IMG/VR virus record: IMGVR_UViG_3300004448_000321
Location: 1-51,456 of that record
DNA: 51,456 bases
DNA from: a virus
Reading direction: 5' to 3' (one strand)
Under the pieces are notes generated by a model. It searched no databases and had not been told where the DNA came from. It saw only the letters and a list, made by a program, of their open reading frames with translations. Position 1 is the first letter of the stretch. Every line of letters starts with the position of its first letter. Below are positions 14,909-36,048 of this stretch, in pieces. Both the position numbers and the translations under genes were made by a program.

Positions 14909-14946
14909 TTGATTTTGATTTTAAATTGGTGAATTGGTTATAATTA

Positions 14947-14973
14947 TGTAGGGGAAGTAGAACCTCCCCTACA
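14947..14973 (-). terminator. Strong hairpin after the 332-residue protein
   Basis: TGTAGGGGA (14947-14955) and TCCCCTACA (14965-14973) form a perfect 9-bp stem, nine bases after the gene's stop. The same sequence builds the hairpin at 16008-16031, so the gene between is bracketed by two copies. No long T-run follows leftward. It may be a partial terminator or an mRNA-stabilising end. Confidence 0.55.
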
Positions 14974-14981
14974 ATATTTTA

Positions 14982-15980: not shown

Positions 15981-16007
15981 TTTATTTTATTTAAATATTT
16001 AAAAGTA

Positions 16008-16031
16008 TGTAGGGGAATTACTTCCCCTACA
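16008..16031 (-). terminator. Perfect 10-bp hairpin after the major capsid gene
   Basis: TGTAGGGGAA (16008-16017) and TTCCCCTACA (16022-16031) pair perfectly around TTAC, 16 bases after the capsid stop. On the minus strand it is followed by TACTTTTAAATATTT, partly T-rich. It could reduce read-through or protect the capsid mRNA 3' end. Near-copy of the hairpin at 14947. Confidence 0.6.
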
Positions 16032-16047
16032 TTATTATTAATAACTA

Positions 16048-17439
16048 CTAGATAACTCTGTACTTTTGGAAATGTTTAACTGCCAAGCACTCAAGACCTT
16101 GAGCAGTTTCCCAGTCAGTATGCAATTGCATAGTTGATGAAGTTGGGATTTCAGCCAAAGCTCCAGTTCTCCACTCAGTGATCATACCATTAGAAGATTT
16201 GTTAGCTGCACTACCCATGAATGGAGTAGGAGTGTAACGAATCTGCATACGTGGTTGTCTTCCGTTATCAACTGTATCTACTTGATCTTTTGGTACAAAG
16301 TACATTGAACCATTTACATCAGCAACTAAAGTTGCAGAGAACAATTGTGGATGATCGAAGATAGGTACATGAACGAAATCAAATTCGTAACCACCATAAG
16401 AAAGGTGTTCTACGTTGAAATCGAAAGACTTACCATCAACTGAAAGACGGCGAGAGTCAACTGAAGATGAACCTAATTGCTTTAAGAATTTGCTGATCAA
16501 ACGATAAGCACGGCTTCCCATAAACACCATCATGTCTGTAGGAGCTTTATTAGCGATAAAGTTATCGATAATCTCGTCTAATTCTACGAAACCAAATGTA
16601 CCTAAAACAGCTGCACTATCATTGATACCATAGTTAATGCAATACCAGTCAAGACCACCTGTAGTCTGAACAGGCAATGTAACACCATTACCAGCAGTAG
16701 CTGTTAAAGCAGGACTAGAAGCACCAGGAGCTGCATTTGTAAACAATGTATTGTTTGTGTATGGGCTACCATTTAAAGAAGAAGCTGAAGCAGTACCTGC
16801 TAACATTTGTACAGAGATATCACCATTTAATTTGATAACTTTTTGTACTGTTTGGTAAGGGAGGATATGATAATCACCACCTACGTTAACTTCAATTTTA
16901 GCAACTTTTTGTACGTCAGAAATCTCATCAACCTCACGGAAGATTTGGATGTTATTGTAGTACTTAGTTAAACCATATCTTCTGTTAGCTGGTGCACCTG
17001 ATTGTTCAGGGAACGCATTAGAACCAAATTGAACTTTATCTGTTGCAACTGCATAGAAGTTACTGTTATCTACAGACTGAACTGTAATAACGTTACCAGA
17101 TACGATTTGCACTAAAGCTTGTTTTCCAATGTTTTGAGCATTTGAAGTTTTAATCAAATCACCAACTCTTGGGAAACTAGTTGCATTAAGAGTAATTGCA
17201 ACTGTAGGAGTACCACTACCAGTAGCAGAAGCAACTGTAGCAACCTCATAAACATCGTTATTAACGAAGTTATTGTAAAAAAACATTTTTGCTGGCTTAG
17301 TACGGTTTACCATTTTCATGATATCTGTAAAAGCTCTATCTCTACTTTGATCGTAGATGTTTGGATCGATATCCCTTTGATCCAAGAAATCAATCGCTGA
17401 GACGAAGGATTTCACCATTGTACCTTGTGAAACTGCCAT
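16048..17439 (-). CDS. Major capsid protein (HK97-fold type)
   Basis: 463 residues, the usual size for this role. N-terminal helix with SRDRAFTDIMKMVNRTKPAK, a beta insertion around 70-140 (PTVAITLNATSFPRVGDLIK), then YYNNIQIFREVDEISDVQKV, a long helix region, and a C-terminal beta section with NGMITEWRTGALAEIPTSST. It lies after portal and scaffold genes, the standard order. Base composition is visibly richer in G+C and its codons look favoured compared with neighbours, as expected for the most abundant protein. Assignment rests on position, size and pattern. Confidence 0.8.
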   Translation of the reverse strand: MAVSQGTMVKSFVSAIDFLDQRDIDPNIYDQSRDRAFTDIMKMVNRTKPAKMFFYNNFVNNDVYEVATVASATGSGTPTVAITLNATSFPRVGDLIKTSNAQNIGKQALVQIVSGNVITVQSVDNSNFYAVATDKVQFGSNAFPEQSGAPANRRYGLTKYYNNIQIFREVDEISDVQKVAKIEVNVGGDYHILPYQTVQKVIKLNGDISVQMLAGTASASSLNGSPYTNNTLFTNAAPGASSPALTATAGNGVTLPVQTTGGLDWYCINYGINDSAAVLGTFGFVELDEIIDNFIANKAPTDMMVFMGSRAYRLISKFLKQLGSSSVDSRRLSVDGKSFDFNVEHLSYGGYEFDFVHVPIFDHPQLFSATLVADVNGSMYFVPKDQVDTVDNGRQPRMQIRYTPTPFMGSAANKSSNGMITEWRTGALAEIPTSSTMQLHTDWETAQGLECLAVKHFQKYRVI

Positions 17440-18773: not shown

Positions 18774-21128
18774 TTACATTAAAGAATGTTTACCTTTTTC
18801 ATTAGCCACTTGTTGCTTCATTATTGATGACTGACCTGCGATATGAGTAGATGACTGTTTAGCATTACTTGTATCTTGAGACACCTGTAATTTCACATTA
18901 TTTGTAGCCATAGCTATTCTTTCTGCAGACTCGATTCTCATTTTTTCTTTTTCCAATTCTCCTTGAATTCTCATTTGTTCCTTTTGCAATTCTAACTGAG
19001 ATTGCATTTGGAATTTCTGAGCTTCTGCTTCCTGAGCAATTTGAGCTGCCTGTTGATTGCCTTGCTGTTGTGCTTGTATTTCTTGCATTCTTTGTTGAGA
19101 CTGCCTTTCCTTGCCTTTCTTTACTTTATAAGCCCAAATTATTTGAGCTTCTTTTACATTTTTAGTATTAATAAGTAATATAGCATCAGAAGAATCCAAA
19201 AATCCATTTGCAATATCTTGTTGCATAGCTTGTAATAACCATGCCTTTTGATCGTTTGAAGATCTTTTTTCTAATTCTATTCCATAATCTCTTAATGAAA
19301 TGCTTGGGGAAATCTCGATAAAGTGCAAAAGATTAGAATTTAATGCAGGGGCAAATCCTTCTATATTTCCTCTCTTTAAAGCTTGCTGAGTTCTGCATAA
19401 TAGATTTTCAGAAAGACGAAGCAATATATTTTCTTCAGAAAAAACTAATGGGAACAATGCTTCATTAGTAGCTTGTTGACCACTTTCATACCCAGGCACT
19501 AATGTCTTAGAAGATGCTTGACCTAAAGTAACATCATTATATCCTGTTAATCTTTCTATTGCGGAAATAGTGTTAACTAAATCATTATAGAACATATTAA
19601 GTTCACTTGCTGCTGTGTTTTCAATAGGTATTACAGGCTTCCAATTAGGGCTTTGCGGAGTACCACCATCTGTATCACTTCTTCCCAGTAAAACCCCTGT
19701 ATCAAAGAACATTTTCAAAAGCTCTTGTGGCTCCATGTCTTGACCACCTTTAGTCATTGCGATTTTCTCAAGTGCAGAAAGATCTATCCACCATCCTGAA
19801 GGAACAGCTCTATTTTTAAAGTTCTGTATCTTCAACATTGTTAATTGATAATCATCAATGTAAGGGATCAAACGTTCCATCATACCTTGAGCCTTCATTT
19901 GATAGAAGTTATATGCATAGAATGTGTAAGATAATTTTGTCTGTGCCTTTTGCTTTATATCGTTAGGTCTTTTTTGATCGTAAGCCATGCCAAAATCATA
20001 ACACTTATCTGTTCCTATAACCCACTTGCATTTATAAACATATTGAATTCTTTTTCTAATATATTTTTCTGATTTCTTGCCTCTATTAAAATCTGCTTTT
20101 CTGAAATCTGGATTTCCCATTTCATCAGCTGCATCTCGGTAAACTCTTTCATTGTAAGTATAAAACTCAATATCTAATACTTTACATTTAAATTTATCGT
20201 ATGGTTTCATCCAACCAGTTCCCAAGCCTAACAAACGAGGATTACCATATTGTCCTGCTATAGTAGATGCAAACTCTGTTAACTCTTGATCTGTAAACAT
20301 TATATTACCTTGATCATCTTTTACTTCAGCAAGCTCTATTAAAGGAACGTCTATGATTTCCCCAGCATGAGCAATATGCTTAAAGTCTCCACTTTTATCA
20401 TAAGATGTTATTATACATTCAGGATCTACAACTCTAAAGCATGGCTTATCATTATCATCTAAATAATCTTTTACTCCAGATACACCTAAGTCAAATAAAT
20501 CTTCAAATATTTTTCTTCTATTTGTTTTGTAATCGTTTTGATATAAAGCTAATTGGATAGCAAGTTCAGCATCTTTGCTTCTATTAAACTGTTCCCCCAT
20601 CATCATCCTCATTTCTAATTCTTCTATATCTTGAGGCTCCCCTGGGTTCATTGCTAAAGCTGGATGATTACCCATCTCTGGATCTTTCTCCATCATAGCT
20701 TCTCTCATTACTAATTTTGTTTTCAACATACTATAGTACTCATCCATTTCAGTTTTAGCCAATTGATCTACTGGAGTAGCAATAACATTGTACTCTTGAG
20801 TCATCAATCTTGATATAGCTTTGTCTCTATATGGAGATATGATTGATCTAATAGACCAATCTAAACTTAACCAAGTATTGTTAGTAGTTTCATCAACTCC
20901 CAACCATTTTTTATACTGAGAGTTTGGTTGCTTTGCTAAAGCATACAATTTGAATTTAGAATAATCCCCTCCATTGCCTGAGAATATTCCTTTAGGATAA
21001 ACGAATTGCCAATCGTAGTATGCGGCTCTTGCGTAATCCATGCACCATTCACGTCCTTTTTTTGATGGATCTATGTTGTGATCTGGATAAGGATGTTGTC
21101 CTGCACTACTAATTTGTTGATACCTCAT
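18774..21128 (-). CDS. Portal protein
   Basis: 784 residues. N-terminal part (FKLYALAKQPNSQYKKWLGV, WLSLDWSIRSIISPYRDKAI) leads to a long stem region with PYIDDYQLTMLKIQNFKNRA and a helix-rich crown. Residues about 690-760 are Gln/Met-rich coiled coil (RMQEIQAQQQGNQQAAQIAQ). Location directly after the large terminase and before the scaffold is the usual place. Twelve copies would form the DNA entry channel at one capsid vertex. Larger than most siphophage portals, as in Bacteroidota podoviruses. Confidence 0.85.
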   Translation of the reverse strand: MRYQQISSAGQHPYPDHNIDPSKKGREWCMDYARAAYYDWQFVYPKGIFSGNGGDYSKFKLYALAKQPNSQYKKWLGVDETTNNTWLSLDWSIRSIISPYRDKAISRLMTQEYNVIATPVDQLAKTEMDEYYSMLKTKLVMREAMMEKDPEMGNHPALAMNPGEPQDIEELEMRMMMGEQFNRSKDAELAIQLALYQNDYKTNRRKIFEDLFDLGVSGVKDYLDDNDKPCFRVVDPECIITSYDKSGDFKHIAHAGEIIDVPLIELAEVKDDQGNIMFTDQELTEFASTIAGQYGNPRLLGLGTGWMKPYDKFKCKVLDIEFYTYNERVYRDAADEMGNPDFRKADFNRGKKSEKYIRKRIQYVYKCKWVIGTDKCYDFGMAYDQKRPNDIKQKAQTKLSYTFYAYNFYQMKAQGMMERLIPYIDDYQLTMLKIQNFKNRAVPSGWWIDLSALEKIAMTKGGQDMEPQELLKMFFDTGVLLGRSDTDGGTPQSPNWKPVIPIENTAASELNMFYNDLVNTISAIERLTGYNDVTLGQASSKTLVPGYESGQQATNEALFPLVFSEENILLRLSENLLCRTQQALKRGNIEGFAPALNSNLLHFIEISPSISLRDYGIELEKRSSNDQKAWLLQAMQQDIANGFLDSSDAILLINTKNVKEAQIIWAYKVKKGKERQSQQRMQEIQAQQQGNQQAAQIAQEAEAQKFQMQSQLELQKEQMRIQGELEKEKMRIESAERIAMATNNVKLQVSQDTSNAKQSSTHIAGQSSIMKQQVANEKGKHSLM

Positions 21129-21145: not shown

Positions 21146-23233
21146 TTATATCGCTTGCCTATAAGGCATAAAAGACTCTATTGACTTTTTTGCTTCTTGT
21201 GGTTTGTAATATCTTTTTGTTTTTGTTGCTATAAGAGCAAATCCTGCTGCCATAGCATCATCAAATTTCTGTGTATCTGCAACATCAAAACCCAGCCAGC
21301 CTGATTTGTCTCCTAGGAGGCTTGGGAAGTAGACCTTGTCAATATTCCGTTCAATATATGCTTCCGTATAGTCACATATTTGCTGAACAACCTTGCCAGT
21401 TCCCCCACCCGAATATATCCCAGGCTCTACCTCATTGGGCAACCACATTAAGAAGTTGCTACACAATTTATCTTCAAAGTACTTTTTCCAACCGTTTACG
21501 TTCCTCTCAAATAAGACTTGACAACCACAGAACCAAGCCATTTTTAGAACCTTATCGTATTGTATATCTGTTGTTGCCGCCCTATCTACATATCTCATAA
21601 CAAACATATCATTATATTTGCTATCTGGATCAGCCATATCTTCCATTTGATAGGCATAAGCGGCACAATTTGATTTTCTATTGTCTTTTGTTTTATCATA
21701 CTTAAATGGATCGCATCCAATTCTTACAGCATAATTACCATTTGGTTGAAAATATCCACCTCTCTGAAAAACGTTGTTCATTTCTTTTGGCATCCAGCCC
21801 ACTACTTTCTCATAATTGCCATTAGGATTACTTACCCATAGCAATTTGTTTAGCTTCATTTCCCTGGCACCGTTGCCATGCATTACTTCTTTATAAAACT
21901 CATCACCATTTTCCCACACTAAGTTACCTCTTTCTACGCAATTATTATTAAAATTTAACCAATCTATTTGTTCGTTTAGTTTAAAAGTGTTATATACACT
22001 TCCTTGTATGCTAGACATGAACATTTCTCTTTCGTCAAAAGGATTCATACGAATCTCTTCTTCTAGTAAAGATCCTTCTAGTCCAGATCTTTTATCTATC
22101 AAGTAATCTCTAGCTCCTAGCTTTACGTCTTCTTCTGTTAGATCACCTAGTCCTACGAAATTATCTACTAAATATTTATATTGTTCGGGAGTTGGTGAAT
22201 CAATAACACTCATCCCGTATTTATCAATAAAACCTAAATATCCGTCAAAGGCTGGAGTAAAATATTTAACCATTCTGTTTGGAGTTCTTTCAAACTTTTT
22301 TGAGTCTGCCAATTCCCAAACTTTTTTATACTCAGCTCCACCTCCCTTAGTCATGTCATTCATTGTAGAAGGACATTCCATAAAACCTACTTTCTTTACC
22401 CCCTTTACTAATGTCTTACTTACAATTGATAAAAATTCAGAAAATGGAACCTCCAATGGGAACTTTCCTCCTTCATCGAATAAACCTCTGGTCAATCTAC
22501 CTGAGTCATACGAGTTCTTCCCTGGTGCACGATAATCTACCTTGCTTCTATGCCCTGTATCATTATCTATTGTGCTACCTTTTGTTCCCTTAACATTTAC
22601 AGACTTGTGTGCAAATATTAATTCTGTTACACTGTCTTTATTATTTAACTGCTTAGGTTTAAGGAAGACAGGGAGTTGGCGATATCCAAATGCAACCATA
22701 TTAGTAAAAGTTACTTTAGCATCTTTTTCCGTCTTGCTTGTTAACCCACAATTACTATTTTTATAAAATACGCATTCATACACAAGATTTGATGTACCTA
22801 TAGATGTTTGCCCTTGTCTTCTTTTCTTACCGATTAGAACACCTAAACACCATGGTATATTTTCCCAGTGATTCAAGTATAAAAAGTATCTCCTATCCAA
22901 GTCCCTGTAGTCTGGGTAAATGTCATCCTCAAGTTTCCAGAATTGTAAATAAAAATAGTTCTTGCCTGTGATATAAATAGGCACTCCATTATTCATAAAC
23001 CAAAAACCTTCTTTACATCTTTTCACTTCCTCCATAGCGTATTCCCTTTGCGTATAATCTAGCAAAGCATCGCCATTTTTATCGTATTCTACTAATTCAA
23101 AGAACTCTGGTAGAGGTATTCTCCTCCAATATTGTTCTGAGGCATCATCAGTTCCCCAACATTCTATTTCCTCAATAGGTGGTTGTTCGGGAAGAACTAT
23201 CTCAGTATTATATATGTATATCTTTTCCCCCAT
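21146..23233 (-). CDS. Terminase large subunit
   Basis: 695 residues. ATPase part: deviant Walker A GKKRRQGQTS (residues 135-144), adenine-side motif TSKTEKDAKV, Walker B LFDEGG (251-256) after GRLTRG. A C-terminal nuclease domain begins near VRIGCDPFKYD with its acidic metal ligand. It translocates DNA into the prohead and cuts the concatemer. Its start overlaps the stop of the 145-residue gene (TAATG). Confidence 0.9.
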   Translation of the reverse strand: MGEKIYIYNTEIVLPEQPPIEEIECWGTDDASEQYWRRIPLPEFFELVEYDKNGDALLDYTQREYAMEEVKRCKEGFWFMNNGVPIYITGKNYFYLQFWKLEDDIYPDYRDLDRRYFLYLNHWENIPWCLGVLIGKKRRQGQTSIGTSNLVYECVFYKNSNCGLTSKTEKDAKVTFTNMVAFGYRQLPVFLKPKQLNNKDSVTELIFAHKSVNVKGTKGSTIDNDTGHRSKVDYRAPGKNSYDSGRLTRGLFDEGGKFPLEVPFSEFLSIVSKTLVKGVKKVGFMECPSTMNDMTKGGGAEYKKVWELADSKKFERTPNRMVKYFTPAFDGYLGFIDKYGMSVIDSPTPEQYKYLVDNFVGLGDLTEEDVKLGARDYLIDKRSGLEGSLLEEEIRMNPFDEREMFMSSIQGSVYNTFKLNEQIDWLNFNNNCVERGNLVWENGDEFYKEVMHGNGAREMKLNKLLWVSNPNGNYEKVVGWMPKEMNNVFQRGGYFQPNGNYAVRIGCDPFKYDKTKDNRKSNCAAYAYQMEDMADPDSKYNDMFVMRYVDRAATTDIQYDKVLKMAWFCGCQVLFERNVNGWKKYFEDKLCSNFLMWLPNEVEPGIYSGGGTGKVVQQICDYTEAYIERNIDKVYFPSLLGDKSGWLGFDVADTQKFDDAMAAGFALIATKTKRYYKPQEAKKSIESFMPYRQAI

Positions 23234-23670
23234 TATCTTCTATCTTGAGCTATAGTATCAACAAATGGCTTTTTTTCTGCTTCTTCTTTCTTATCTGCTC
23301 TAAGTACTCCTGACATTTGTCCTAGTTGTGTCAGGGAAATGGCGATCTCCGATGCCCCCTGCCAGATTACTTTTAGACGATCAAAAGACTTACTCTTTGG
23401 ATCATCAATGTCAAGGTCTCTTAAGTTTATAGCATTCATAAGTTCTGCCATCTCATTTGCCTTTCTGTTTAAACTATAATATAGTTTAGCCATTCCGTTG
23501 TCCTCATACTTTGCTAATCTCCCCTCTAGCTTCTCTATCTTTGATTTAAGATACTCTGGAGAACTTTTGTCCACAATTACTTCACTTGGCTCTATGTATT
23601 CTTCTCCGTTATCTTTAGATCTTTGCTTCTTTCTTTTTTCTATTAATTCGCTTAGTTGTTCGTCTGTCAT
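23233..23670 (-). CDS. Helical protein coupled to the terminase (small-subunit candidate)
   Basis: 145 residues, charged and helical (QLSELIEKRKKQRSKDNGEE; PEYLKSKIEKLEGRLAKYED), with a second amphipathic region near the C-terminus (GASEIAISLTQLGQMSGVLR). Small terminase subunits are helical oligomers of this size encoded just before the large subunit, and the TAATG overlap supports a joint function. No HTH is obvious, so a packaging accessory or head protein is possible. Confidence 0.5.
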   Translation of the reverse strand: MTDEQLSELIEKRKKQRSKDNGEEYIEPSEVIVDKSSPEYLKSKIEKLEGRLAKYEDNGMAKLYYSLNRKANEMAELMNAINLRDLDIDDPKSKSFDRLKVIWQGASEIAISLTQLGQMSGVLRADKKEEAEKKPFVDTIAQDRR

Positions 23671-23747
23671 GATTTTGAATTTGGTTAGGGAATTGGTAAT
23701 ATAAAATGACCTATAAGCAGTTCTTATGGTATGCTTATAGGTACTGT

Positions 23748-24248
23748 TTACTTATTTTTGAAAGCTCTTTTTTCAAATTCATAAACCCAATTTTTGTCTT
23801 GTTTATCAATAGTTTCTAGTTGATTCAAAAATGTTGAATATTCTGCTACAGCCAATCTTTGAATTGTTCTGTATGCTTGTAGAAAATCAAAGGTACATAA
23901 ATCTTTCTTATTAAAGATATCCATACTAATATTTTCATATTCTTCATACAAATTGTATTCCATTTCGTATGCTTTTTCAATAGCATCTACTAATCCAGAA
24001 ACTTTTTCAGGAACTCCTACTGGAGCTAAAGATGGCTGAATATTCCAATCTGTTAGATACTTTTGAATGCCTTCTGCGTGCTTTAACTCATCTTCAGCCT
24101 CTCCTTTAAAATATTCTGCAGCTTTTAGATAGCCAACATTTTCGCAATAATTTGCTACTTGTCTATAGAAATAATGAGCATCATACTCATTGTTTATTCT
24201 TTGGTTTAGCAAGTTTGCAATGTCTGATGGTAATTTCTTTGGTGTCAT
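23748..24248 (-). CDS. Ferritin-family protein
   Basis: 166 residues, four-helix ferritin pattern. E21 in helix A and E54-x2-H57 in helix B (KGEAEDELKHAEGIQKYL) have the same 33-residue spacing as E17/E50/H53 of bacterial ferritin FtnA. Helix D (FDFLQAYRTIQRLAVAEYST) parallels FtnA FLQWYVAEQ with Q130 kept, but the usual second acidic ligands there are Ile and Ala. So one iron site is near complete and the other weakened. It would oxidise and store Fe(II) or protect DNA. It sits between packaging genes and the giant virion protein, which may mean it is a virion part. Confidence 0.8.
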   Translation of the reverse strand: MTPKKLPSDIANLLNQRINNEYDAHYFYRQVANYCENVGYLKAAEYFKGEAEDELKHAEGIQKYLTDWNIQPSLAPVGVPEKVSGLVDAIEKAYEMEYNLYEEYENISMDIFNKKDLCTFDFLQAYRTIQRLAVAEYSTFLNQLETIDKQDKNWVYEFEKRAFKNK

Positions 24249-24265: not shown

Positions 24266-27200
24266 TTAATCAAGTTTTGTTACTTGCCTTTTTGATTTAG
24301 GGGATATACCCATTTCTTCTAAAATTTTTGATGAAATATCTCCTTCTTTATCTTTTACTTTACTTTCAAGATCTTTACCTTCTAAATCTTTGCCCATTTT
24401 ATAAGAGTAGTCATTCCCTTCTTTTATTTGATATTGAGTATTTAATACTTCGTCTATACCAGATTTTACATTTTTATTTAATTTTTCTGCATATGTATCA
24501 TACTCTTCTTTACTCATTATGCCATCTGGATGAGATTCATCTTGAATTACTTTTATTTTTCTTCTTTCTCTTATAAATGGAATTTCTACTCCTTTTTCTT
24601 GCAGTAGGTTGAAATTTTCATCTTGCATCTCTTCTTTTGTAAATAATTCTTTTTTAGCTTCCAGTCTGTTTCTAAGTGGAGTACCTTCCATAAACTTCTC
24701 AACAATTCCTGATGGTAATCTTTTTATGCTTTTACCTTCTTCTGTATCAGTCCAATCTGAAATATTTTGCAATAATTGAGGTTCACCAATACCTGTTCCC
24801 AAACCTGCTAAATAATCAGTAAATTTATCTCCATTCTGGAATGACTCTTCAATTCTTGCTGCACCACCAAATAATGGTATTTCTTTAATAACATTTTTAA
24901 ATACAGTAGGTATCCCTTTAACTATTGATGGTTCATTCCCTTTTAATACTTCTGCGTCTGAAGATCTTCTTATTGTAGCCCCTACTTGTAACATTTCTAA
25001 TAAAGGAGAGTGACTCATCCAGTGAGGAAGTTTTTTACCAAATAATTCTATTTCTCCTGCTTCTAAATCTCCTTCTTTTCTTTTACCAGAATAATAACCT
25101 CCTAAAGCTTGTGGATTAAGATATCCTAAAAACATAAATGCTGCTCCAATAGATTGTTTTTTTAATGCTCTCATAAAATAATCTTTCTGCTCAGGAGTCA
25201 TTTTAGAAACTCCATTTTTTAAAGCATAAAGAGCCTTTACTGAACCTATCATATATGATGATGCTTCAGCAACATAGTTAGTAGGTACTTTTACGATAGG
25301 GAATATAAATTTTAATGCATTTGCTACTTCTTTAGCCCCTTGTATTTTTGATTTTTCTAATTTTTCTACTCCTGCCTTATACCAATCTGTTATGTAGTTA
25401 TCCTGCATAAATACAGCTCTTAATGCATCATTATAAGCACCAACAGCTAATTCTTGTTGAACAATTGGATCCATCGGATCTAATCCTTTCTTTATAGCAT
25501 TTTCAGTTCTCATTTCAAGAGAACGAAAGAATTCAGCTCGTTTGGGAAGTAGTTTCATAGCTGCGTGCATTCTACCAAAGAATTCCATCCAATGTGGTAC
25601 TTTTGGTGCGAACTCTTTTTTATCTCCATACAAATAATCCAATTCCCCAACACCAGTTTTTAAAACTTGCTTCATATCTTGTATGGTCATCTTATCAAAC
25701 CATGTTGTAAATGCTTTAGCTTCTGCTTTAGGGCTTAATCTTCCTTCTCTTTCTGCTCCTTTAGCAATACCTCTTATCCCTGGTATATATGATAATCCTT
25801 GACCAATAACACCTTCTAATCTTGATGTAACACCTCTCATAGTTGCAGCTGTTGCAATTTTTCCAAGTGAGGGAATACCTGATAAAATAGCTAAACGATG
25901 CCATCCATGTAGGTAATCCATTGCTACTTCTCCCTTAGACCTTTGATCTAACTTAAATTGATCTTTCATTAAATCAATTTGAGTTTGAACTTTTTTAACA
26001 TTAGCCATAGCTTGTATTTGCTCTGGAGTAAGAGGAGTTTTAACTGGTTCTTTTGAGTACTTACCTATTACTACGTCTTCTATGTCTTTTCTTGTTAGTT
26101 CGGGAAGTACTGATGATACATCAGCATGAATATCATCTATAATACTTTTTAAATTAGTGTTACCAGCTTCAGCGTATGATTTAACTAAATCTTTAACATC
26201 TTTTGTTATAGATTCCAATTGAGCCTGTTTTTCTGGAGTGATAGGTTCTTCTTTAGAAAAAAGAACTTTACCTTCTCCTGTTTCAGACTTAGATTTAGAA
26301 GCTAAACTTTTCCATGCATCTATTATTTTCTTTTTTAAAGAAGTTCTTTCTTTTGTAACTTCTTCTGGGCTTTTAGATACTTTTTTAGTTTTAGCTATTT
26401 CTTTTTGTGCTTGGTTAGCTAAGTTCTTTTTTTCTAGTTCTTCAATTCTTTGATTAGCTTCATTTAATTTTCTAACTAATTCTTGTAATTGAGTTCTTTT
26501 TTCTGCAGGTATATCTTCCCCTCCATTAGCAGCTTTCATTCTTTGCAATTGAGTAGCTAATGAATAATCTCTATTTATTAACATTTTTCTTGCTGCTAAT
26601 CCTAATCCTTGCTCATACCCTGATTTTCTTGCTGCATCGTCATTTATTTGCATTCTTTGCTCAAGAACATCTAATTGAGATTGCAAAACTTGTGCAGTCA
26701 TTTCATCCCCTTTTCTTTGAGCATCTATCATTTGATCGGTAAGCATACCATAATCTTTAGAAATTTTCATTCTATCCATTAATAATACTACACTTTCTTC
26801 TGCTGATAATGGTCTTGGCTTTGCTGCTATCTGAGCTGCAAATACTGCTGGATTTATTTCTTCATTATCAACCATTTTTTTAGCATTATCAAATGCCTTA
26901 CCAAATGATCTTTTAGCTTCTATCTCTACTGGCTCTAAATCTCTTTCAGCTCTTTCTTTTGTTGTTATTTCTTTTTTAATTCCTGTAGTTGTAAGATCAT
27001 GATATGCTTGCTCTATCACTGGCTCTTCGACATCATAGTCTTCCCCAAACTCATCTCTCATTATTTCTTTAACATCATCTAAACTATATCCTTGATTAGT
27101 ATATTCTTTAAGAATACCTTTCATTTCATTTAGATCTGATTCATCTACTTTAGAAAGTTGTGTTTTATCTTCAGTAGGAATGATATCTTTTCCAATTACT

Positions 27201-30200
27201 TCATTAGAAACAATATTTAAATTCTTAGCATATTTACTTAATATAGTTCTAACTTCTGGATTACTTACAGCATATGTCAAAATCTCTTGTGGAGAATTTG
27301 TTGCCTCGATCATAAACTTATATGCATTAGACTGTTCTTTAGTCATACCTTCTGGCATATTGTTTTTTAGATCTTCTTTTATGTCTGCTAAAGTGTTTTC
27401 TATTTCTTTTTTCTTCTCACTATTCTCTATTAAATGATGTGTATATTCATGTGCTAAAGCATTTGATAATTGACCTGATTCTACTTCTTGCCAATGTGTG
27501 CTATTTTTATTTACATCAATTGATTTGTTTTTAGTATCATAGAATGCAGCTCCTTCTGATGGTCTTTTGCCTGATATTTTTATGTTAGGGAATTCCTTCT
27601 TAAAATTATCTAATACACTTTTTATTACAGGATCAGATGTTTTTTCATCACTTACTAATTCATTAGAATCTATATTAGATCCTTTTTCATACTTACTTAA
27701 AATATCTGATGCTTTTTGTTTAGGAGTTACTTCTTCTCCGACTTTGCTTTCAATTCCTTTGCCTTCCCCTCCAGCCCCTTGTGCTTGAAGTACTCTACCA
27801 CCGCTAGTCTCTTGTGTGCCTCTGCCTTTGACAGATTGGGCTTTGACAGGTTCTCCCCCGACTCTGATACTACTTGGTATCCTTGACTTGTTTTCTTTAT
27901 CATATGTTAATAATTGTTTGGGAACTTCTTTAATTGTTTTTTCATGAAACTTAGATATATCTGTAAACTCTGGAGGAAGCAACATCGCTTTCTGTTGAGC
28001 AAATACAAATTTATCATATACTGTAGATAATAGATCTTCCCCAGCCTTCACCATTTCTTCATCTCCTATCTTCTTACCTTCTTTTTTTAATGCTGATCCT
28101 TTCTTTATATCACTTAATACTTGATCATTTACTCCTGAGTAGTTAACCCATGAGTTTTGTCCTCTTGTCTCTGATGATAAAGCCCATTGTGCTAATGGTG
28201 AGAACATTTTACTATGCTCTATCCATGCATTCTCTTCACCATCTTTACCAAATTGATATCCTTCTACAGAGTGACCATAATAATCATGCACTGCTCTAAA
28301 TTTATCATTTGCAGTTAGATCATTTTTATCTCTTGTTTTGCTTCCAAGCTCTGTATGATCATCACCTCCTTTGTATACCCATAAGTGATTGAAATTATGA
28401 ACGTCATCAAGCATCTCAAAGTTATTCTCATAGTTACCTTCTCCATTTTCATGGAATGTAACTTTAACTGGAAGCCTGTCATATTGATTTTGAGTCTCCT
28501 CTATTAATTGAGAATATGCTTTGTGTGTTAAGTCTTTATAATCTTTTATATCATATTGTTCTATGATCTTAGGGAACTTCTGCTTATAATCGCTAAATAT
28601 TTTTCTTTCTAAATCTGTTTCTTTATAATCTGGAGAATTTACATCCTGTAATTTAGGATATAACTTAGCTATCTTAGCTTGTTGCACTGGATCAGATGGC
28701 TTATACTTATGTGTAGTAACCTCTGGCAATCCTGCCTCTTGATTATAAGAATTAGCTGCCTTTAATGAAGCATTTTTTTCTGGATCTTTTATTTTTTCTT
28801 TGGCTTCATTCCTTGCATTATTCGTGTCGGACTCTGTTCTTGTTCTGCTTCCGATAGCATCTTTGCCGTTATATTGTACTCCTTCGGCATTAACTTTTCT
28901 TTCTTCTTGTTTTGCATTTGTTTCTATTTTTTCTTCTTTTGAAAATTGAGTTTCTTGTTTTTTAGCTAAAGTTTCTACACCTTTTTCAAATCCTTCAGAA
29001 GCCATTCCTGGAGCTGAACTTTCTGCTCCAAGCTTTTGCCATAATTTTTTCTCAAAATCCCAAACTCTTTGTTGTATTACAGCTGGACTAGTATTTAATT
29101 CTTTAGCTACTTGATTCCATGCCTCATCTGCTAATTTTCTTCTTCTATTTCCTTCTACAGTTGTAGCCCATGGATTTTTTAATACTTCTCCATTTTTGTC
29201 AATTAATGGTTCCCCAAACAATCTTGCCATTGTTCTAGCATACCATAAATCCTTAGTAACTGTAGAATATTCACCAACTCTGTTTAATATATAAGATCCT
29301 AATTTGGGCCCCGATATTGCAAATACACCAAAACCACCATTTTCTTTTGTTAAATTTTCATGTGCAGATAAACTCTTTGTTCCTTTTAAAGGAGTACCCA
29401 TAACATTTGATAATTCTTCATAAGAATGCTGAGATTCAATCCATTTAATTGCTTTTTTTATATCTCCATCAAAATGACCAACTACTTTATTAAATTTTTC
29501 TAAAGATTCTGTTGCATATGCTCTAGCTATTTGAGACATTACAGGTTTACCTTCACTATCAAATTTTAATTCTCCTGTATCATATCTTTTACCTTTGTTA
29601 TCTGTAGACCATACCGTTGCTTGCTTATCTGTATAAGGAGATAATTCCCCTGTTCTTAAATATCTATCAAATATTTGTAATCCTATATTAGAATCAAATA
29701 CAGGAGTTGCAGATGGGGATGCAAAAGAACTTAATACATGATACAAAGAAATTTCCTCGTTAGTCAAATCTCTACCATGTGTTTTTTTAGCCCAATCAAC
29801 AAGTTTAGGATTTAATGTTTGGGGAATATCTTCATCATAAAATCCTTGATATCCATCATTAACTGTTTCCCAAGCCTGTAACTCTTTTTTAGTATGATCA
29901 ACTAATTTTTCTACAAATTTCTTATCGCTTACTCCTGTTAAATCGCCTTTGAATAATCTATTTTTCTTAGACCATTTACCAATCCAATTTGCTACATCGG
30001 TAAGATTTTTAAATGCAGGGTGTTCTTCCTCTCCTGTCATTAATTTTTCAGCTTGATATTGAGGTTTTCTACCTTCTATGTCTCCTACTCTTGTTTTATT
30101 TTTATATTTAATCTCTTCTCCCTTAGCAAATTTTTGAGATACTTCTTTAGCTAAATCTTGAAGATCTTTTATAGAATTAATATCCTTGCCTATGTTTATA

Positions 30201-33200
30201 CCTAACTTGCTTAATATAGCTTTAAAGAAATCTTTTACTTTTTCAAAGTTTGTCTTGTCTAGCTTTATAGATCCGTCTGCTACCTTAGCTACAAAATCAG
30301 TAATAGCTTCTTTCTTTATTGTAGTTTCTGATGATCCTTTGTAAATTCTATTAGCATCATCAATTATTTTTTGCCCACCTTCAATTCCCTTTAACTGATT
30401 ATGGAATTGATTTATAATTTCTGGTCTATGAATAGCCATAAAATCTAACAATGGATGGAACCCTTCATGCTTCATTGTTTCAGGAGTTACTCTAGGCATA
30501 TTCAAGTGAATTATACCTTCTGGAGAGAAGTAAAATCCTTTTGCTGCAAGTTGATCTTGTTTTTTACCAGATGCTTCTTCAGCAGCCTTTCTAAAGCTTT
30601 CATCATTACTATGTATAACTACCTCTGCATTTTTACCTGAGATTTCCCTAACAACATTATTAATAGATTTTAAAACTTTACCTGCATCTTCTACTACTTT
30701 CTTTTGTGTCTCATCATATCCTTTAGTATCTACTGATGATATTGTTTGTGAGTTATGTGTTTGTGGGGGAAGATCTGATTGTGGTCTTCCTGGTGGCGGT
30801 GCTGTTTGCGTACCTTGAGTTTGCTCTTGCTTCTTTCTCTCTCTTCTTTCTTTTATTTTTTCTGAAGCTGTTTTTATTTTTGCTGGCTTACCTGTTGGTT
30901 CTCCTTCTTTTTGTTGGGGAACTTCTGTTTTAACTTCTTCTTTCTTTTCTACTTTAGGCTTTTCTACTGGGACTTCTACTTTTTGAGTTTTAACTACTTC
31001 TTGATATGCTTTATCAAATGCCGCATCTGGGACTTCCCCAACAACATCTGCTCTCATTTTTATTGCTATATCTAATGCCTTGTCTCCTTTTATCTCTACT
31101 GTATGACCATCTTTAGTTTGTACTGTAACAGACTCTAGGTTGCCGTCTTTATCCATTTTAAATGGTTCGGGAACTCGATCTTCTGATGGTAATGTCAAGT
31201 CTCTATCTGTCATTGCCTTTTCACCAATAACAACAGGTTCTTTTCCTTCTGTTTCAACTACATAGTTGCCATCTTTTATTTTTAAAGTTCCTGTGTGGGT
31301 TGTTCCATCTGCGAGGGTGACTGTTGTTTCACTTCCTGTTGAGGCTTCGAGGGCTGGTCTTTTTTCGAGCTTTGTTTTAGCTCCAAAAGTACCTTCAACT
31401 GGAGTTTTTTCGGTAGTTTCGACAGTTTCAGTCTTTGTGACAAATTCATGTTCTTGTAATTTTGTGATTAATGGTTCTATTAAATGAGCTGCCTCTGGAT
31501 GCTTATCAAGAGCAGTATAAAGAATGTCTTCAGTTTTTTTAATTTCATCTTGATTTATATTCTCAGCATTATTAACTTTTGTTATTGTGCCTTGAGCAGC
31601 ATCTAAATCTTCTTGTGGAATAAATTCAGAAGCTTTTTTAAATGTAGGAATTATTTCTGTATCAGATATAGGCTTTACTTCTTTCCTAACAGTCATGTCA
31701 GGTTCAGGAACTTTTTTAGTTGGTTTTGCTTCTAAGTATGTTCCTTTGTATATTTTATCCATTTTCTCATCAAGAGCAACAATTCTATCTCCTAATTTAG
31801 AAGCTAAATCTTTAGGAATATCTTTTTGTAATAAAGATTCCGCATCTATTTTTTGCATTTTTAAAAATAGTAAATCTCTTTGTTGTTCTTGATTTAAAGG
31901 ATCTCCATTAGCATCTAACATAGGAGTTGAAGCCAAAACTCTATTAGCATTCATTATGTTGCTAGAAATTTGTTTAGCTTTCTCTGGAGTATATTCACCA
32001 CTATTTAATTTATCTGAAGTTAATTTTAAAAATAATGTTGGATTTTGTGCAGCTGCATGAATTGCATCTTTATTAATTGAAGTAGTATTTGTTATACCTC
32101 CCTCTTTAGTTAACTGACGAGAAGTACCTAATACTGTATTAAATAGAGACATATTCATAAGCTCTAACATACCTTCTTTTGTGTATTCTTCTGGTGATTT
32201 TAAATCATTCATTACAGCATCATTAACAATCTTACCTGTTGTAGTTGCTGCTACAAATTTACCTGCTTCTTTTGTCCCTTCTAATGCAACATTAGTTACA
32301 TTTTTGGCTGCATTTAATGTTTTATTTAATAAACCAAGAGACTTTGGTTCAGTCCTTAATGCAGTTAATATTTGTTCATCAGATAATTTATCTACTAATT
32401 TACCTATTGCTGTTTTGTTACCTAGCATTTTTCTAATAGCATCAGGTGCACCTGCTCCTGCCATAGCTGCTGAATGTATTGCAGTAGAAGTCATTGCATC
32501 ACTATATGGATTTTTACTGCCTCTTTCTATAGCTGCTGCATATTCATCATTAAAACTAGATAAAGCTGCTGCTGTAAATGTTCGCATGAAATTACTTGCA
32601 TATGCTCCTGTAGCTCCACCGCCAGTTGCATATTCAGCTAATAAAAACGGAGCCAATCCTGCTGCCATGTTTCCTAACCCATATAGTAATGATGTAGATG
32701 ATATATTAGATTTACCTCCTTCTATAGGTTTTGCTTCTACATCAGAAGGATTATCATAAATTAAATTAGTAGTTTTTTTTATTTTTTCTTCTTGTGTTAT
32801 AGAATTATCAGCATTAATAGCATCAATTTGCTTTTGTAATTTTGGGCTTAATTTATAATCTATATTTTTAGTAAATCCAGTTTCTTGTGTTTGGTATAAA
32901 ACATTTTCAATTTGTGCTCTTTCACCTAATAATGATGCTTGATCTATTTCATTCTTAACATCACTTTGAAAAGGAGTTTTTATCATATTCCATCCTCCTT
33001 TCACTGTATTTAATAATCCAATACCTGTTTTGCCTAATATATTAACTATTCCTCCAGTTCCCTGACCAACTAATTCTTGTGCAACTTTTCTTGATTCCAA
33101 ATAAGTAGCTGTAGGAAATTTTTGCGATAAATTTTTTTCATCATCATCTAATGTAGTATAAGCTTCTTTATATGGAGTTATTTGTTTTTCTAATTCAAGG

Positions 33201-34534
33201 GCTTTATTATATTCTTCTTGAGTAGCTGTACCATCTTTTACTTTACCATATAAAGTTTCATATTCTTGCTGATAATTATTTATATTCCATAAAGTATTAT
33301 TTTTTTTCATTTGAATGCCTAACTCTTCTAATCTTTTTCCAGCTATTTCTTTTTGAACTTTAGCATCATAATTATCTGCAATATCATTATTATCAATAAA
33401 AACAGATTTATATCTATTTGCTTCAGTTGGTTGCAAATCTTCTAATAATTTATATGCTATAGCCTGATTAGGGCTTAATTTAGTAAGCAGAGGATCTGCT
33501 GGATCTATTTTTTGACCAGCATATACTGGAGAAAATGCTGTATACATATTAGATAAAACATCTTCTGATTTATCTCCACTTACAGTTTTTGCTATATTTA
33601 CTAAAGACTGTACATTACCTCTTACACCTTCTAGATCCAATCCTAATTGATTACGATTCGCTATATTACTGCTATATTGTAATGATAATTTTTTTAATCT
33701 ATTTTTTTCTTGATCGTCAATATTTTCATCTGCATTTATAGAATTAAAAACAGAACTTCCCCATTTAGCTGTAGATATAGCTATTTCATATTTTTGAGGA
33801 TTCTGTTTATAATATTGCAACATTTTTGCTGGAGAATATTCTGGAGTTTTCCAATAAACAGGATTAATTCCTTGAGCATCTTCAAATAATTTATCAGCAT
33901 TATATCCTGCAGCTTCTATTTGTGATTTTAAATTATTTGCTTGATTTATATTATCTTGATCTACTACTTTAGATACAGCAGCTCCGCCAGTTCCCCCAGA
34001 CACAGATACAGAAGTAGCTGTATTTCTAAGAGTATTAGCTTCTATTGCTTTTTTAAATAAATCGTTTGGATCTTCTTCAGGAGTTACTGGTACTGGCTGA
34101 CCATTAGCATCTTTTGGCAATTCTGATAATGCACGAAATTTCGATGGGTAAGCATCTGCCATACCATCCTGAGAAGATTCGCCACCATTTTTTTTTTTAC
34201 TTACAAATGTTGATAAGAATTCGTTCTTATCTCCTAAGTCATCTGTAGTATATCCGTCTGCTATTAATTTAGAATAAACCTTATCTGCTTTTGAACTATC
34301 AGATAATGCTGTCAAGAATTCATCTTCTGATCCTATATCATCTGTAGTATATTTTGATGTACCATCTGATTTCTTGGCTCCTATTAAATTTCTATAAAGT
34401 TTTTGTGCTTTTGTTGGGGGATCTTGTGCCTCTACAGCATCTATATCAATTATAGGATTGCTATTTGTAGATATATTAGATTCTGGAGTTTCTTGTTGAG
34501 ATTGATCTATATCTTGAATATCTTCAAATGCCAT
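24266..34534 (-). CDS. Giant polyvalent internal virion protein (3,422 aa)
   Basis: One unbroken frame, a fifth of the window. Residues 40-110 have a repeated YTTDDxGxxxEFL unit. About 610-720 is hydrophobic and glycine-rich, possibly membrane-inserting. HEGFH at 1356-1360 and HEYTHH at 2362-2367 are two zinc-peptidase-type HExxH sites. Around 2083, HDYYGHSVEGYQFGKDGEEN and ETRGQNSWVNYSG form a conserved domain known from phage polyvalent proteins. Residues 2580-2740 are coiled coil. About 2900-3110 contain PKRAEFFRSLEMRTE and FIFPIVKVPTNYV, typical of the C-terminal membrane-associated part. Such proteins are packed in the head and injected with the DNA. Confidence 0.8.
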   Translation of the reverse strand: MAFEDIQDIDQSQQETPESNISTNSNPIIDIDAVEAQDPPTKAQKLYRNLIGAKKSDGTSKYTTDDIGSEDEFLTALSDSSKADKVYSKLIADGYTTDDLGDKNEFLSTFVSKKKNGGESSQDGMADAYPSKFRALSELPKDANGQPVPVTPEEDPNDLFKKAIEANTLRNTATSVSVSGGTGGAAVSKVVDQDNINQANNLKSQIEAAGYNADKLFEDAQGINPVYWKTPEYSPAKMLQYYKQNPQKYEIAISTAKWGSSVFNSINADENIDDQEKNRLKKLSLQYSSNIANRNQLGLDLEGVRGNVQSLVNIAKTVSGDKSEDVLSNMYTAFSPVYAGQKIDPADPLLTKLSPNQAIAYKLLEDLQPTEANRYKSVFIDNNDIADNYDAKVQKEIAGKRLEELGIQMKKNNTLWNINNYQQEYETLYGKVKDGTATQEEYNKALELEKQITPYKEAYTTLDDDEKNLSQKFPTATYLESRKVAQELVGQGTGGIVNILGKTGIGLLNTVKGGWNMIKTPFQSDVKNEIDQASLLGERAQIENVLYQTQETGFTKNIDYKLSPKLQKQIDAINADNSITQEEKIKKTTNLIYDNPSDVEAKPIEGGKSNISSTSLLYGLGNMAAGLAPFLLAEYATGGGATGAYASNFMRTFTAAALSSFNDEYAAAIERGSKNPYSDAMTSTAIHSAAMAGAGAPDAIRKMLGNKTAIGKLVDKLSDEQILTALRTEPKSLGLLNKTLNAAKNVTNVALEGTKEAGKFVAATTTGKIVNDAVMNDLKSPEEYTKEGMLELMNMSLFNTVLGTSRQLTKEGGITNTTSINKDAIHAAAQNPTLFLKLTSDKLNSGEYTPEKAKQISSNIMNANRVLASTPMLDANGDPLNQEQQRDLLFLKMQKIDAESLLQKDIPKDLASKLGDRIVALDEKMDKIYKGTYLEAKPTKKVPEPDMTVRKEVKPISDTEIIPTFKKASEFIPQEDLDAAQGTITKVNNAENINQDEIKKTEDILYTALDKHPEAAHLIEPLITKLQEHEFVTKTETVETTEKTPVEGTFGAKTKLEKRPALEASTGSETTVTLADGTTHTGTLKIKDGNYVVETEGKEPVVIGEKAMTDRDLTLPSEDRVPEPFKMDKDGNLESVTVQTKDGHTVEIKGDKALDIAIKMRADVVGEVPDAAFDKAYQEVVKTQKVEVPVEKPKVEKKEEVKTEVPQQKEGEPTGKPAKIKTASEKIKERRERKKQEQTQGTQTAPPPGRPQSDLPPQTHNSQTISSVDTKGYDETQKKVVEDAGKVLKSINNVVREISGKNAEVVIHSNDESFRKAAEEASGKKQDQLAAKGFYFSPEGIIHLNMPRVTPETMKHEGFHPLLDFMAIHRPEIINQFHNQLKGIEGGQKIIDDANRIYKGSSETTIKKEAITDFVAKVADGSIKLDKTNFEKVKDFFKAILSKLGINIGKDINSIKDLQDLAKEVSQKFAKGEEIKYKNKTRVGDIEGRKPQYQAEKLMTGEEEHPAFKNLTDVANWIGKWSKKNRLFKGDLTGVSDKKFVEKLVDHTKKELQAWETVNDGYQGFYDEDIPQTLNPKLVDWAKKTHGRDLTNEEISLYHVLSSFASPSATPVFDSNIGLQIFDRYLRTGELSPYTDKQATVWSTDNKGKRYDTGELKFDSEGKPVMSQIARAYATESLEKFNKVVGHFDGDIKKAIKWIESQHSYEELSNVMGTPLKGTKSLSAHENLTKENGGFGVFAISGPKLGSYILNRVGEYSTVTKDLWYARTMARLFGEPLIDKNGEVLKNPWATTVEGNRRRKLADEAWNQVAKELNTSPAVIQQRVWDFEKKLWQKLGAESSAPGMASEGFEKGVETLAKKQETQFSKEEKIETNAKQEERKVNAEGVQYNGKDAIGSRTRTESDTNNARNEAKEKIKDPEKNASLKAANSYNQEAGLPEVTTHKYKPSDPVQQAKIAKLYPKLQDVNSPDYKETDLERKIFSDYKQKFPKIIEQYDIKDYKDLTHKAYSQLIEETQNQYDRLPVKVTFHENGEGNYENNFEMLDDVHNFNHLWVYKGGDDHTELGSKTRDKNDLTANDKFRAVHDYYGHSVEGYQFGKDGEENAWIEHSKMFSPLAQWALSSETRGQNSWVNYSGVNDQVLSDIKKGSALKKEGKKIGDEEMVKAGEDLLSTVYDKFVFAQQKAMLLPPEFTDISKFHEKTIKEVPKQLLTYDKENKSRIPSSIRVGGEPVKAQSVKGRGTQETSGGRVLQAQGAGGEGKGIESKVGEEVTPKQKASDILSKYEKGSNIDSNELVSDEKTSDPVIKSVLDNFKKEFPNIKISGKRPSEGAAFYDTKNKSIDVNKNSTHWQEVESGQLSNALAHEYTHHLIENSEKKKEIENTLADIKEDLKNNMPEGMTKEQSNAYKFMIEATNSPQEILTYAVSNPEVRTILSKYAKNLNIVSNEVIGKDIIPTEDKTQLSKVDESDLNEMKGILKEYTNQGYSLDDVKEIMRDEFGEDYDVEEPVIEQAYHDLTTTGIKKEITTKERAERDLEPVEIEAKRSFGKAFDNAKKMVDNEEINPAVFAAQIAAKPRPLSAEESVVLLMDRMKISKDYGMLTDQMIDAQRKGDEMTAQVLQSQLDVLEQRMQINDDAARKSGYEQGLGLAARKMLINRDYSLATQLQRMKAANGGEDIPAEKRTQLQELVRKLNEANQRIEELEKKNLANQAQKEIAKTKKVSKSPEEVTKERTSLKKKIIDAWKSLASKSKSETGEGKVLFSKEEPITPEKQAQLESITKDVKDLVKSYAEAGNTNLKSIIDDIHADVSSVLPELTRKDIEDVVIGKYSKEPVKTPLTPEQIQAMANVKKVQTQIDLMKDQFKLDQRSKGEVAMDYLHGWHRLAILSGIPSLGKIATAATMRGVTSRLEGVIGQGLSYIPGIRGIAKGAEREGRLSPKAEAKAFTTWFDKMTIQDMKQVLKTGVGELDYLYGDKKEFAPKVPHWMEFFGRMHAAMKLLPKRAEFFRSLEMRTENAIKKGLDPMDPIVQQELAVGAYNDALRAVFMQDNYITDWYKAGVEKLEKSKIQGAKEVANALKFIFPIVKVPTNYVAEASSYMIGSVKALYALKNGVSKMTPEQKDYFMRALKKQSIGAAFMFLGYLNPQALGGYYSGKRKEGDLEAGEIELFGKKLPHWMSHSPLLEMLQVGATIRRSSDAEVLKGNEPSIVKGIPTVFKNVIKEIPLFGGAARIEESFQNGDKFTDYLAGLGTGIGEPQLLQNISDWTDTEEGKSIKRLPSGIVEKFMEGTPLRNRLEAKKELFTKEEMQDENFNLLQEKGVEIPFIRERRKIKVIQDESHPDGIMSKEEYDTYAEKLNKNVKSGIDEVLNTQYQIKEGNDYSYKMGKDLEGKDLESKVKDKEGDISSKILEEMGISPKSKRQVTKLD

Positions 34535-34590: not shown

Positions 34591-36048
34591 CTACTCCCAT
34601 AATTTTTTCTTGACTCCTTTTACTTTAGGAACTATACTTGATTGTGGTGTTGGGGAAGCTGCAGATGCTGCAGGAGCATTTTTACCAGGAGTATATTTTC
34701 CTATTAAAGAAACAAACTTAACATCATCTTTTGGATTTGCTGTTTGTATTGTACTTATAAACTTACCAAATGGCATTCCACTTTCTAGTTCTTTGCCATT
34801 ATTGTCTATTATACTAACTAATTTTTTATTAGGATCATATTTAACTTTAATTCCCTGACCTGCTTGTATTTTACCATATGCTTGTACACCTGTTAAATAA
34901 GGTGTTACATCTATTCTATTTTTATCATCTCTTTTCTCTATATCTAATGAAGGATATAAATAATTCTTTCTATCTTGTAAATCTTTCTCAGATTGAGTTC
35001 CCCCAGCATTAACATTAACTCCTATTTTTGTTCTGTCTACTTTTTCTGCTTTTAACTTTAATTTAGAAGATGTTTCAAGTTCATGATAAGCTAAAGCTTT
35101 TTGAAATTGATGTATTTGCGTAGGATTTGGTGGAGTTGGAGATTGTGCAACAAACTTTGCTGTTTCTTGATCTAAATAAGCTTTTTGAGTTGCATTGAAA
35201 TCATTAAATATATCTTCATCAACCATTCTTATTTCTTTTTGTTGTGGCTTACCATCTTTTATAATAGTATGCATTAATGGAGCCCCATCATCTGTAGCTA
35301 TTTCATATTTAGGTACAAATGTAACTTGCCCATCCTGTGTTTCAGATACAAAATTAGTAGGAGCATTTGTCCTGTATTCAGTATCTACTTTATTTTTACC
35401 AACTTGTGTTGAATGAACAACAGATCTAGTTGCAGTACCTGATTTTGCAACATAATCATCAAAAGATCCAGAATTATAAACATTTCCCGAACCTAATAAT
35501 ATTTTAGGGATATCATTTGCATCTACTTTAACATCAGAAAAATCAGTTTTAAGATTTCCCTGACTATCTCTTAAATAATAATTTCTTATTTGATTATAAG
35601 CTGCATCTCCATCTATCCCAGGTTTATTAGCCATTTCTTTTTTAGCTGTTTCTGCTATTTGATTTACTGCAGATAATCTTGTGCTTTTATCTAATAGAGG
35701 GAATGCTTCTTGTCTTGCATTTATTTTAAATTGATTTATATCCATTCCTGGATTTTGTTTCAATTGGTTTTGCAATTTAGAAAGAGAACTGTTTAATTCA
35801 TTATTCATGTATACATCATCAGCAAAATTACCAGTAGCATATTTTTTATTATTATATAAGTCTTCTAAATAAGAAAGCCCTGTAGCAACTCTAGCTTGTT
35901 CTTTTTCTTGGGCTTCTTTTGCTGCTTTTGCTGCTTCTGTTGCTTTTTTTTCTTTTAAAAGCTGATTTTCTTGAATAGCATCTCCAAGTTTATATAGCCC
36001 TTCAAACTTACGTTCTGGTACTGCAAATCCTGATAAATCTAATGGCAT
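34591..36048 (-). CDS. Internal virion protein candidate (485 aa)
   Basis: Starts MPLDLSGFAVPERKFEGLYK. Residues 25-60 are an Ala/Lys/Glu helix (KKATEAAKAAKEAQEKEQAR); the middle mixes helices and beta; the end is proline/alanine-rich then basic (KVKGVKKKLWE). Together with the 209-residue gene before it and the giant gene after it, it makes a three-gene set reminiscent of the T7 gp14-gp15-gp16 internal core by order and size trend only; no sequence similarity is claimed. Confidence 0.6.
   Translation of the reverse strand: MPLDLSGFAVPERKFEGLYKLGDAIQENQLLKEKKATEAAKAAKEAQEKEQARVATGLSYLEDLYNNKKYATGNFADDVYMNNELNSSLSKLQNQLKQNPGMDINQFKINARQEAFPLLDKSTRLSAVNQIAETAKKEMANKPGIDGDAAYNQIRNYYLRDSQGNLKTDFSDVKVDANDIPKILLGSGNVYNSGSFDDYVAKSGTATRSVVHSTQVGKNKVDTEYRTNAPTNFVSETQDGQVTFVPKYEIATDDGAPLMHTIIKDGKPQQKEIRMVDEDIFNDFNATQKAYLDQETAKFVAQSPTPPNPTQIHQFQKALAYHELETSSKLKLKAEKVDRTKIGVNVNAGGTQSEKDLQDRKNYLYPSLDIEKRDDKNRIDVTPYLTGVQAYGKIQAGQGIKVKYDPNKKLVSIIDNNGKELESGMPFGKFISTIQTANPKDDVKFVSLIGKYTPGKNAPAASAASPTPQSSIVPKVKGVKKKLWE

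Follow-up and report, generated by a model that had tools for sequence, protein, structure and literature searches.

The window, by which we mean the whole 51,456-nucleotide stretch of viral DNA analysed here, encodes on its minus strand a 166-residue protein that is strongly supported as a true full-size ferritin, and the ligand set of an H-type two-iron ferroxidase centre is, as judged by alignment, complete in it and almost invariant in its phage family. The reading we prefer, to which we give a probability of roughly 0.55, is that this is a working maxi-ferritin dedicated to the phage, which would be made late and would remove Fe(II) around phage DNA. An earlier note on this DNA had put forward a phage ferritin at 23748-24248, naming a predicted fold unlike ferritin, or a profile search without ferritin relatives, as outcomes that would speak against it. 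A minus-strand open reading frame does occupy these positions, the profile search matched PF00210, and the structure prediction, when compared with FtnA, returned a ferritin fold.

The Pfam Ferritin profile matches the window protein at 83.6 bits against a cut-off of 24.5 (E 1.6e-23), with Rubrerythrin as a weaker match (4.9e-8), and it is matched at an E of 0.001 or better by all 58 family members scanned. The same 58 members all match phrog_16594, a PHROG without a function, for which the window protein scores 46 bits (8.3e-12) and for which a function can now be suggested. H. pylori ferritin is the top PDB sequence match (7.2e-16). The protein falls outside the narrower NCBIfam families, reaching 44.5 bits with the FtnA equivalog NF007638, far under the cut-off of 178, and 17.1 bits with the bacterioferritin model TIGR00754, under the cut-off of 125.55. 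The gene is under purifying selection, with dN/dS values of 0.05-0.15 in the four unsaturated pairs of the seven that involve the window (the other three are saturated) and of 0.03-0.09 in three further ferritin pairs, among the pairs listed.

An AlphaFold2 model of the window protein from a 58-sequence input reached a pLDDT of 96.5 and a pTM of 0.90; an earlier model from a 10-sequence input had a pLDDT of 80, and Foldseek with that model ranked bacterial ferritins first. Four long helices (8-38, 41-67, 86-113 and 117-144) are followed in the 58-sequence model by a fifth, short one (152-162). VIA-align superposes this model on V. cholerae FtnA with a Z of 24.2 and 1.2 Å over 162 residues, and on human H and frog M ferritins with Z values of 23.5-24.1 over about 160-166 residues. 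As the superposition on these 24-mer maxi-ferritins is full-length, the model contains helix E, which forms the lining of the cage channel in 24-mer ferritins, and helix E and the fold together suggest that the phage protein would assemble into a 24-subunit cage. Two other identities were considered and set aside. Dps mini-ferritins are four-helix bundles that have no C-terminal helix E and an inter-subunit iron site, and are ruled out by the helix at 152-162 and by the intra-subunit ligand set. In bacterioferritin the haem-ligand Met sits two residues before the helix B His; the window protein has L55 at this position, nearly invariant in the 58-sequence alignment.

For the iron site, the sequences of E. 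coli FtnA and human H-ferritin, verified against PDB chains, served as references, and conservation was read from 88 family rows (73 distinct) comprising loci L010, L050-L127 and L002-L009 and the window, with L128 excluded as it lies on the same contig as L005. The five ligand positions are given in Table 1. E21, E54, H57 and the helix D pattern FLQ.Y...Q are as the earlier note described them, the window reading FDFLQAYRTIQ, and the helix C ligand E97, missing from its list, completes the set. The loss of helix D ligands that it reported stands in so far as FtnA E126, E129 and E130 are absent, but these are third-site residues and the two-iron ligand Q130 is kept; the half-dead iron site that such a loss implied is not supported, the H-type di-iron centre being complete. 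Y28, which corresponds to human H Y34 and FtnA Y24, is kept in 88/88 rows, and position 133 of the family, the counterpart of human H A144, is A or S in every row.

In the window, FtnA E126, E129, E130 and E131 are replaced by I129, L132, A133 and V134, and E49 by D53; the third iron site of FtnA, site C, we take to consist of E49, E126, E129 and E130. All four of E126, E129, E130 and E131 are kept in 72/72 aligned Bacteroidota cellular ferritins, these being the loci, out of 80, that contain EERMH, or DEE together with NFLQWY, a string criterion biased towards the helix B ligands. With the two-iron ligands kept and the third-site glutamates changed, the phage centre resembles the H-type rather than FtnA. 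A degenerate ferritin was rejected, since the missing residues are third-site and not two-iron ligands. Human E61 is changed as well as the third-site glutamates, and turnover may therefore differ from that of known ferritins. Furthermore, the phage family has invariant or near-invariant residues of its own, H25 (87/88), E50 (88/88), Y94, E136 and Y137, and these might form a candidate extra metal site near E21/E54.

The window protein thus shares its fold, length, helix E, site A/B ligands and FLQ.Y...Q pattern with FtnA (E. coli, V. cholerae and H. pylori) and with the Bacteroidota cellular ferritins, whereas the phage family is set apart from the latter by the lack of E126/E129/E130, by low identity and by its separate clade. 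With vertebrate H/M ferritin the family has E27, Y34, E62, H65, E107, Q141 and A/S at 144 in common; identity is, however, about 22-24%, human E61 becomes N, S, D, T, G or A, and H25 and E50 are additional. Dps and Mn-catalase are known from phages (Gratiaviridae and Lactobacillus phages, in the available text of PMC8008677 and PMC6669764) and belong to the ferritin superfamily too, but as a mini-ferritin or a catalase, not as a maxi-ferritin with helix E. Two unreviewed database entries already bear a ferritin label: A0A6J5MFB8 ('Ftn', uncultured Caudovirales phage), with 45% identity over the structural match, and A0A8D9C9X5 ('bacterial non-heme ferritin', marine phage), with 22%. A literature search, mostly without subscription papers and preprints, found no published description of the phage ferritin family, and exact-phrase searches for phage or viral ferritin returned only a paper on a giant-virus ferritin.

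A single query brought up nine viral contigs, and a second search gave the same nine; a relative at 48% identity, used as query, brought 99 matching stretches, of which 80 were kept. Contigs carrying ferritin relatives span 4 to 385 kb and include small podovirus-like contigs as well as phages of 100-385 kb, many with a T4-type portal and prohead protease. A maximum-likelihood tree was built from 58 phage proteins (the 73 distinct rows after near-copies and partial rows had been removed by hand), 25 cellular proteins (a random pick from the 72 filtered loci) and 2 reference proteins. All phage rows lie on one side of a branch supported at 99/100, and the window clade is supported at 100/100; the placement of human H-ferritin is unsure owing to its very long branch. 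On this sequence evidence the family is a virus-only branch of ferritins, found in dozens of uncultured viruses, and its significance lies in the apparently complete H-type centre that small podovirus-like and very large phages have in common.

Of the 296 host-order genomes, 152 contain a ferritin match, with 25% identity (E 6.5e-12) for the best, and the ferritins of these genomes are about 20-29% identical to the phage query among the matches listed. Recent capture from a present host is not supported, given these low-identity cellular matches and the 99/100 separation of phage from cellular rows. The nearest named relatives of the portal and terminase are Flavobacterium elemo-type and Cellulophaga phages, which makes a Bacteroidota host likely. 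A profile search of five Bacteroidota genomes with the 58-sequence alignment came back empty, which we take as a failure of sensitivity; hmmsearch with the 58-sequence profile matches the ferritins extracted from those five genomes. A scan of genome contigs with alignment A1 found nothing. No family member was found by tblastn among 50,697 named phage records with the window protein, L010 or L119 as query: the last two gave zero matches, and the sole match of the window protein (26.7%) is in a record that looks like a bacterial contig. E. coli FtnA matched six records without annotation, one of them this same bacterial-looking record. Judged by its ORFs, locus L018, which is the 4.2-kb 'Bacteriophage sp.' record MT839617.1, looks bacterial, and its ferritin adjoins genes that we named by eye as desulfoferrodoxin-like and thioredoxin-reductase-like.

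On the minus strand the ferritin gene lies in a block (Table 1) that runs from the muzzle-like protein through the 209-aa, 485-aa and giant proteins to the ferritin, and on through the 145-aa protein, terminase, portal and a 407-aa protein to the capsid protein. Between the end of the giant gene and the start of the ferritin, on the same strand, are 17 nt. The placement described in the earlier note, near packaging genes, recurs in the window clade, and among ten near contigs compared at ORFs of at least 80 aa the ferritin directly follows a giant ORF in nine (the window and G001-G008, the giant ORF being truncated where the contig of G005 ends); G009, the remaining contig, has a different arrangement. 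G006, which has no match to the window's portal, carries a 71% identical ferritin, again directly behind a giant ORF; further upstream G006 has a weak homologue of the muzzle protein, 22% identical over 641 aa. The giant protein diverges strongly between contigs, with identity of the ferritin remaining near 80%. Many large relatives have the ferritin among nucleotide-metabolism, lysis or unknown genes, not head genes.

Table 1. Coordinates of the ferritin gene, its ligand codons and neighbouring features in the window
Feature	Position	Strand	Evidence
Phage ferritin, 166 aa	23748..24248	-	Pfam PF00210, AlphaFold2 model, VIA-align
E21 codon (human H E27 / FtnA E17), putative helix A di-iron ligand	24186..24188	-	E in 88/88 rows
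E54 codon (human H E62 / FtnA E50), putative bridging ligand	24087..24089	-	E in 88/88 rows
H57 codon (human H H65 / FtnA H53)	24078..24080	-	H in 88/88 rows
E97 codon (human H E107 / FtnA E94), putative helix C ligand	23958..23960	-	E in 88/88 rows
Q130 codon (human H Q141 / FtnA Q127), helix D	23859..23861	-	Q in 86/88 rows, N in 2
Giant protein, 3422 aa, candidate virion/ejection protein	24266..34534	-	phrog_3170 (unknown function) 1.2e-16
485-aa protein, same block	34591..36048	-	ORF and position
209-aa protein, same block	36057..36686	-	ORF and position
Muzzle-like virion protein, 1448 aa	36699..41045	-	phrog_14478 virion structural protein 1.5e-26
Conserved 145-aa protein, gene located between those for ferritin and terminase	23233..23670	-	ORF and position
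Terminase large subunit	21146..23233	-	phrog_6681 1e-82
Portal protein	18774..21128	-	phrog_6547 6.7e-67
SU10-type major capsid protein	16048..17439	-	PF17236 7.7e-11
Hairpin with conserved loop, just 3' of ferritin stop, in gap before next gene	23709..23742	-	perfect 11-bp inverted repeat

In the mechanism that we favour, the ferritin would be made late together with the giant/virion gene block, its subunits would assemble into a hollow cage, and this cage would oxidise free Fe(II) and store it as ferric mineral. Fenton damage to phage DNA would thereby be suppressed as genomes accumulate and are packaged, the stage at which host iron metabolism would also break down. Purifying selection and the conserved two-iron centre both argue for real iron chemistry. 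We regard as very unlikely a reuse of the ferritin fold as a structural or scaffold part devoid of such chemistry: the loss of the FtnA third-site glutamates and the position of the gene between the giant protein and the terminase would suit it, but few residues of the protein are conserved as strongly as the two-iron ligands. It is also improbable, if less so, that the gene is an auxiliary metabolic gene through which iron storage and release alter the iron supply of the infected cell in favour of phage replication. This idea has been proposed for the ferritin of NCLDV (giant viruses) in the available text of PMC7136201, and the complete ferroxidase centre is in its favour; the ferritin is nevertheless placed in the virion gene block, and Pfam scans of 29 window proteins found no iron transport, siderophore or ribonucleotide reductase families.

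The DNA-protective role that we prefer does not require the ferritin to be in the virion. A virion location is nonetheless plausible, and it is possible, though we hold it only tentatively, that the ferritin sits in the head or cargo zone of the particle, where it would protect the packaged DNA from iron-driven oxidation, or that its subunits are ejected and reassemble once in the new cell. A 24-subunit ferritin cage measures about 12 nm. Tail constrictions in a crassvirus are under 50 Å (in the available text of PMC10172136), too narrow for a folded 24-mer, which, if packaged, would be retained in the head or exit in the form of subunits. The same text reports gp45-gp50 of crAss001, numbered just after the muzzle, as virion cargo by mass spectrometry; the order of genes in the window, with the ferritin near the giant and muzzle-like proteins, fits this arrangement, and by analogy a virion role for the giant protein may be inferred. 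The muzzle-like protein scores 26.4 bits with crAss_MUZ_C, for which the cut-off is 27. The suggestion in the earlier note of a virion-borne ferritin beside an injected protein was not borne out by the window clade, in which no capsid-targeting tag was found, nor by the named phage records, where tblastn with three members found none of the family.

In T4-like relatives the protein would enter the head by means of an N-terminal capsid-targeting tag, which a gp21-type protease would then remove. T4 itself directs proteins to the prohead through a short tag at the N-terminus, and proteases of the T4 type cleave behind Glu (available text of PMC3012670 and PMC5694885). No targeting tag of 10-20 aa is present in the window ferritin, which starts MTPKKLP without an extension. 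Among 86 of 87 relatives' loci, with the most upstream ATG taken as the start (one locus runs off its contig), 63 have an extension and 23 do not. The motif [ILVM]xE occurs in 15/21 dissimilar extensions, against 9.5 +/- 1.9 in shuffles, of which 21 of 5000 reach 15; an earlier count, with some wrong starts, gave 12/18 (reached by 28 of 2000 shuffles), and [ILV]xE lies within the first 22 residues of 624/1323 other ORFs at the same loci. T4-type prohead protease (PF03420) exceeded its cut-off in 21/41 records and a T4 portal in 23/41, but neither turned up in the five records of the window clade that were included, or in G006 and G009; absences among these 41 hand-chosen records are weak since many are fragments. 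Similar genome-wide N-terminal tags in the seven large genomes examined would fit the same route. The tag score of the ferritin N-terminus is above most interior segments, which reach it in 1/140, 21/204, 3/56, 4/288, 4/196 and 0/183 cases in six large genomes, and is middling among N-termini, ranking 27/140, 69/205, 20/56, 51/291, 48/196 and 53/185 (G039 was not scorable); this middling rank counts against a packaged ferritin. A targeting tag in the large relatives is therefore suggestive, and the window protein is silent on it. We are doubtful of the wider proposal that tailed phages unrelated to one another, on Bacteroidota-type hosts, pack their heads with a dedicated H-type ferritin, the T4-like ones by means of a cleavable N-terminal tag; if true, the particle would carry its own iron-detoxifying cage beside its DNA. 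It becomes testable whether, and by what means, lytic phages keep free iron and oxidative damage to phage DNA in check, and whether virions include iron proteins.

Several minor observations were made alongside. Genome-specific N-terminal tags common to dozens of proteins of differing length were seen in G012, G013, G015, G018, G032, G033 and G039, and several such tags in large phages end in [ILV]xE. Examples are MKHIKLFEQF[IV]NE (G032), MKNIPTFEEFINES (G039) and MKIIITESQ (G033), and N-termini above 4 bits compare with interior segments as 69 v 20, 97 v 18 and 75 v 6. The giant protein (24266-34534, minus strand) contains two stretches that look metalloprotease-like by eye, MKHEGFHPLLD and LAHEYTHHLIE. 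A protein with a C-terminal GroES-like (Cpn10) domain (9.9e-10) is encoded at 47552-48187 on the minus strand, and GroEL/GroES are annotated in the elemo and Manatee Spring phages, which are distantly related to the window.

The hairpin behind the ferritin gene recurs in contig G001 with the same loop and a compensated stem. Rfam gave no match over the gathering score for it, and scans for promoter-like and terminator-like signals gave no more than chance expectation. Its invariant core, GCATACCATAAGAACTGC, has exact copies in at least 119 viral contig stretches (loci L295-L389 among the sites). Among the 78 distinct sites, 12 fall within ORFs; for the remaining 66 the preceding ORF is on the same strand in 60, mostly within 40 nt. 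The stem covaries, with at least 6 of the 7 outer positions paired at 17/56 distinct sites, compared with a mean of 3.7 and a maximum of 9 in 1000 shuffles. Two similar hairpins of the window, at 14939-14981 and 15996-16043, share TGTAGGGGAA / CCCCTACA and lie in intergenic gaps, one 3' of the capsid gene and the other 3' of the gene that comes next.
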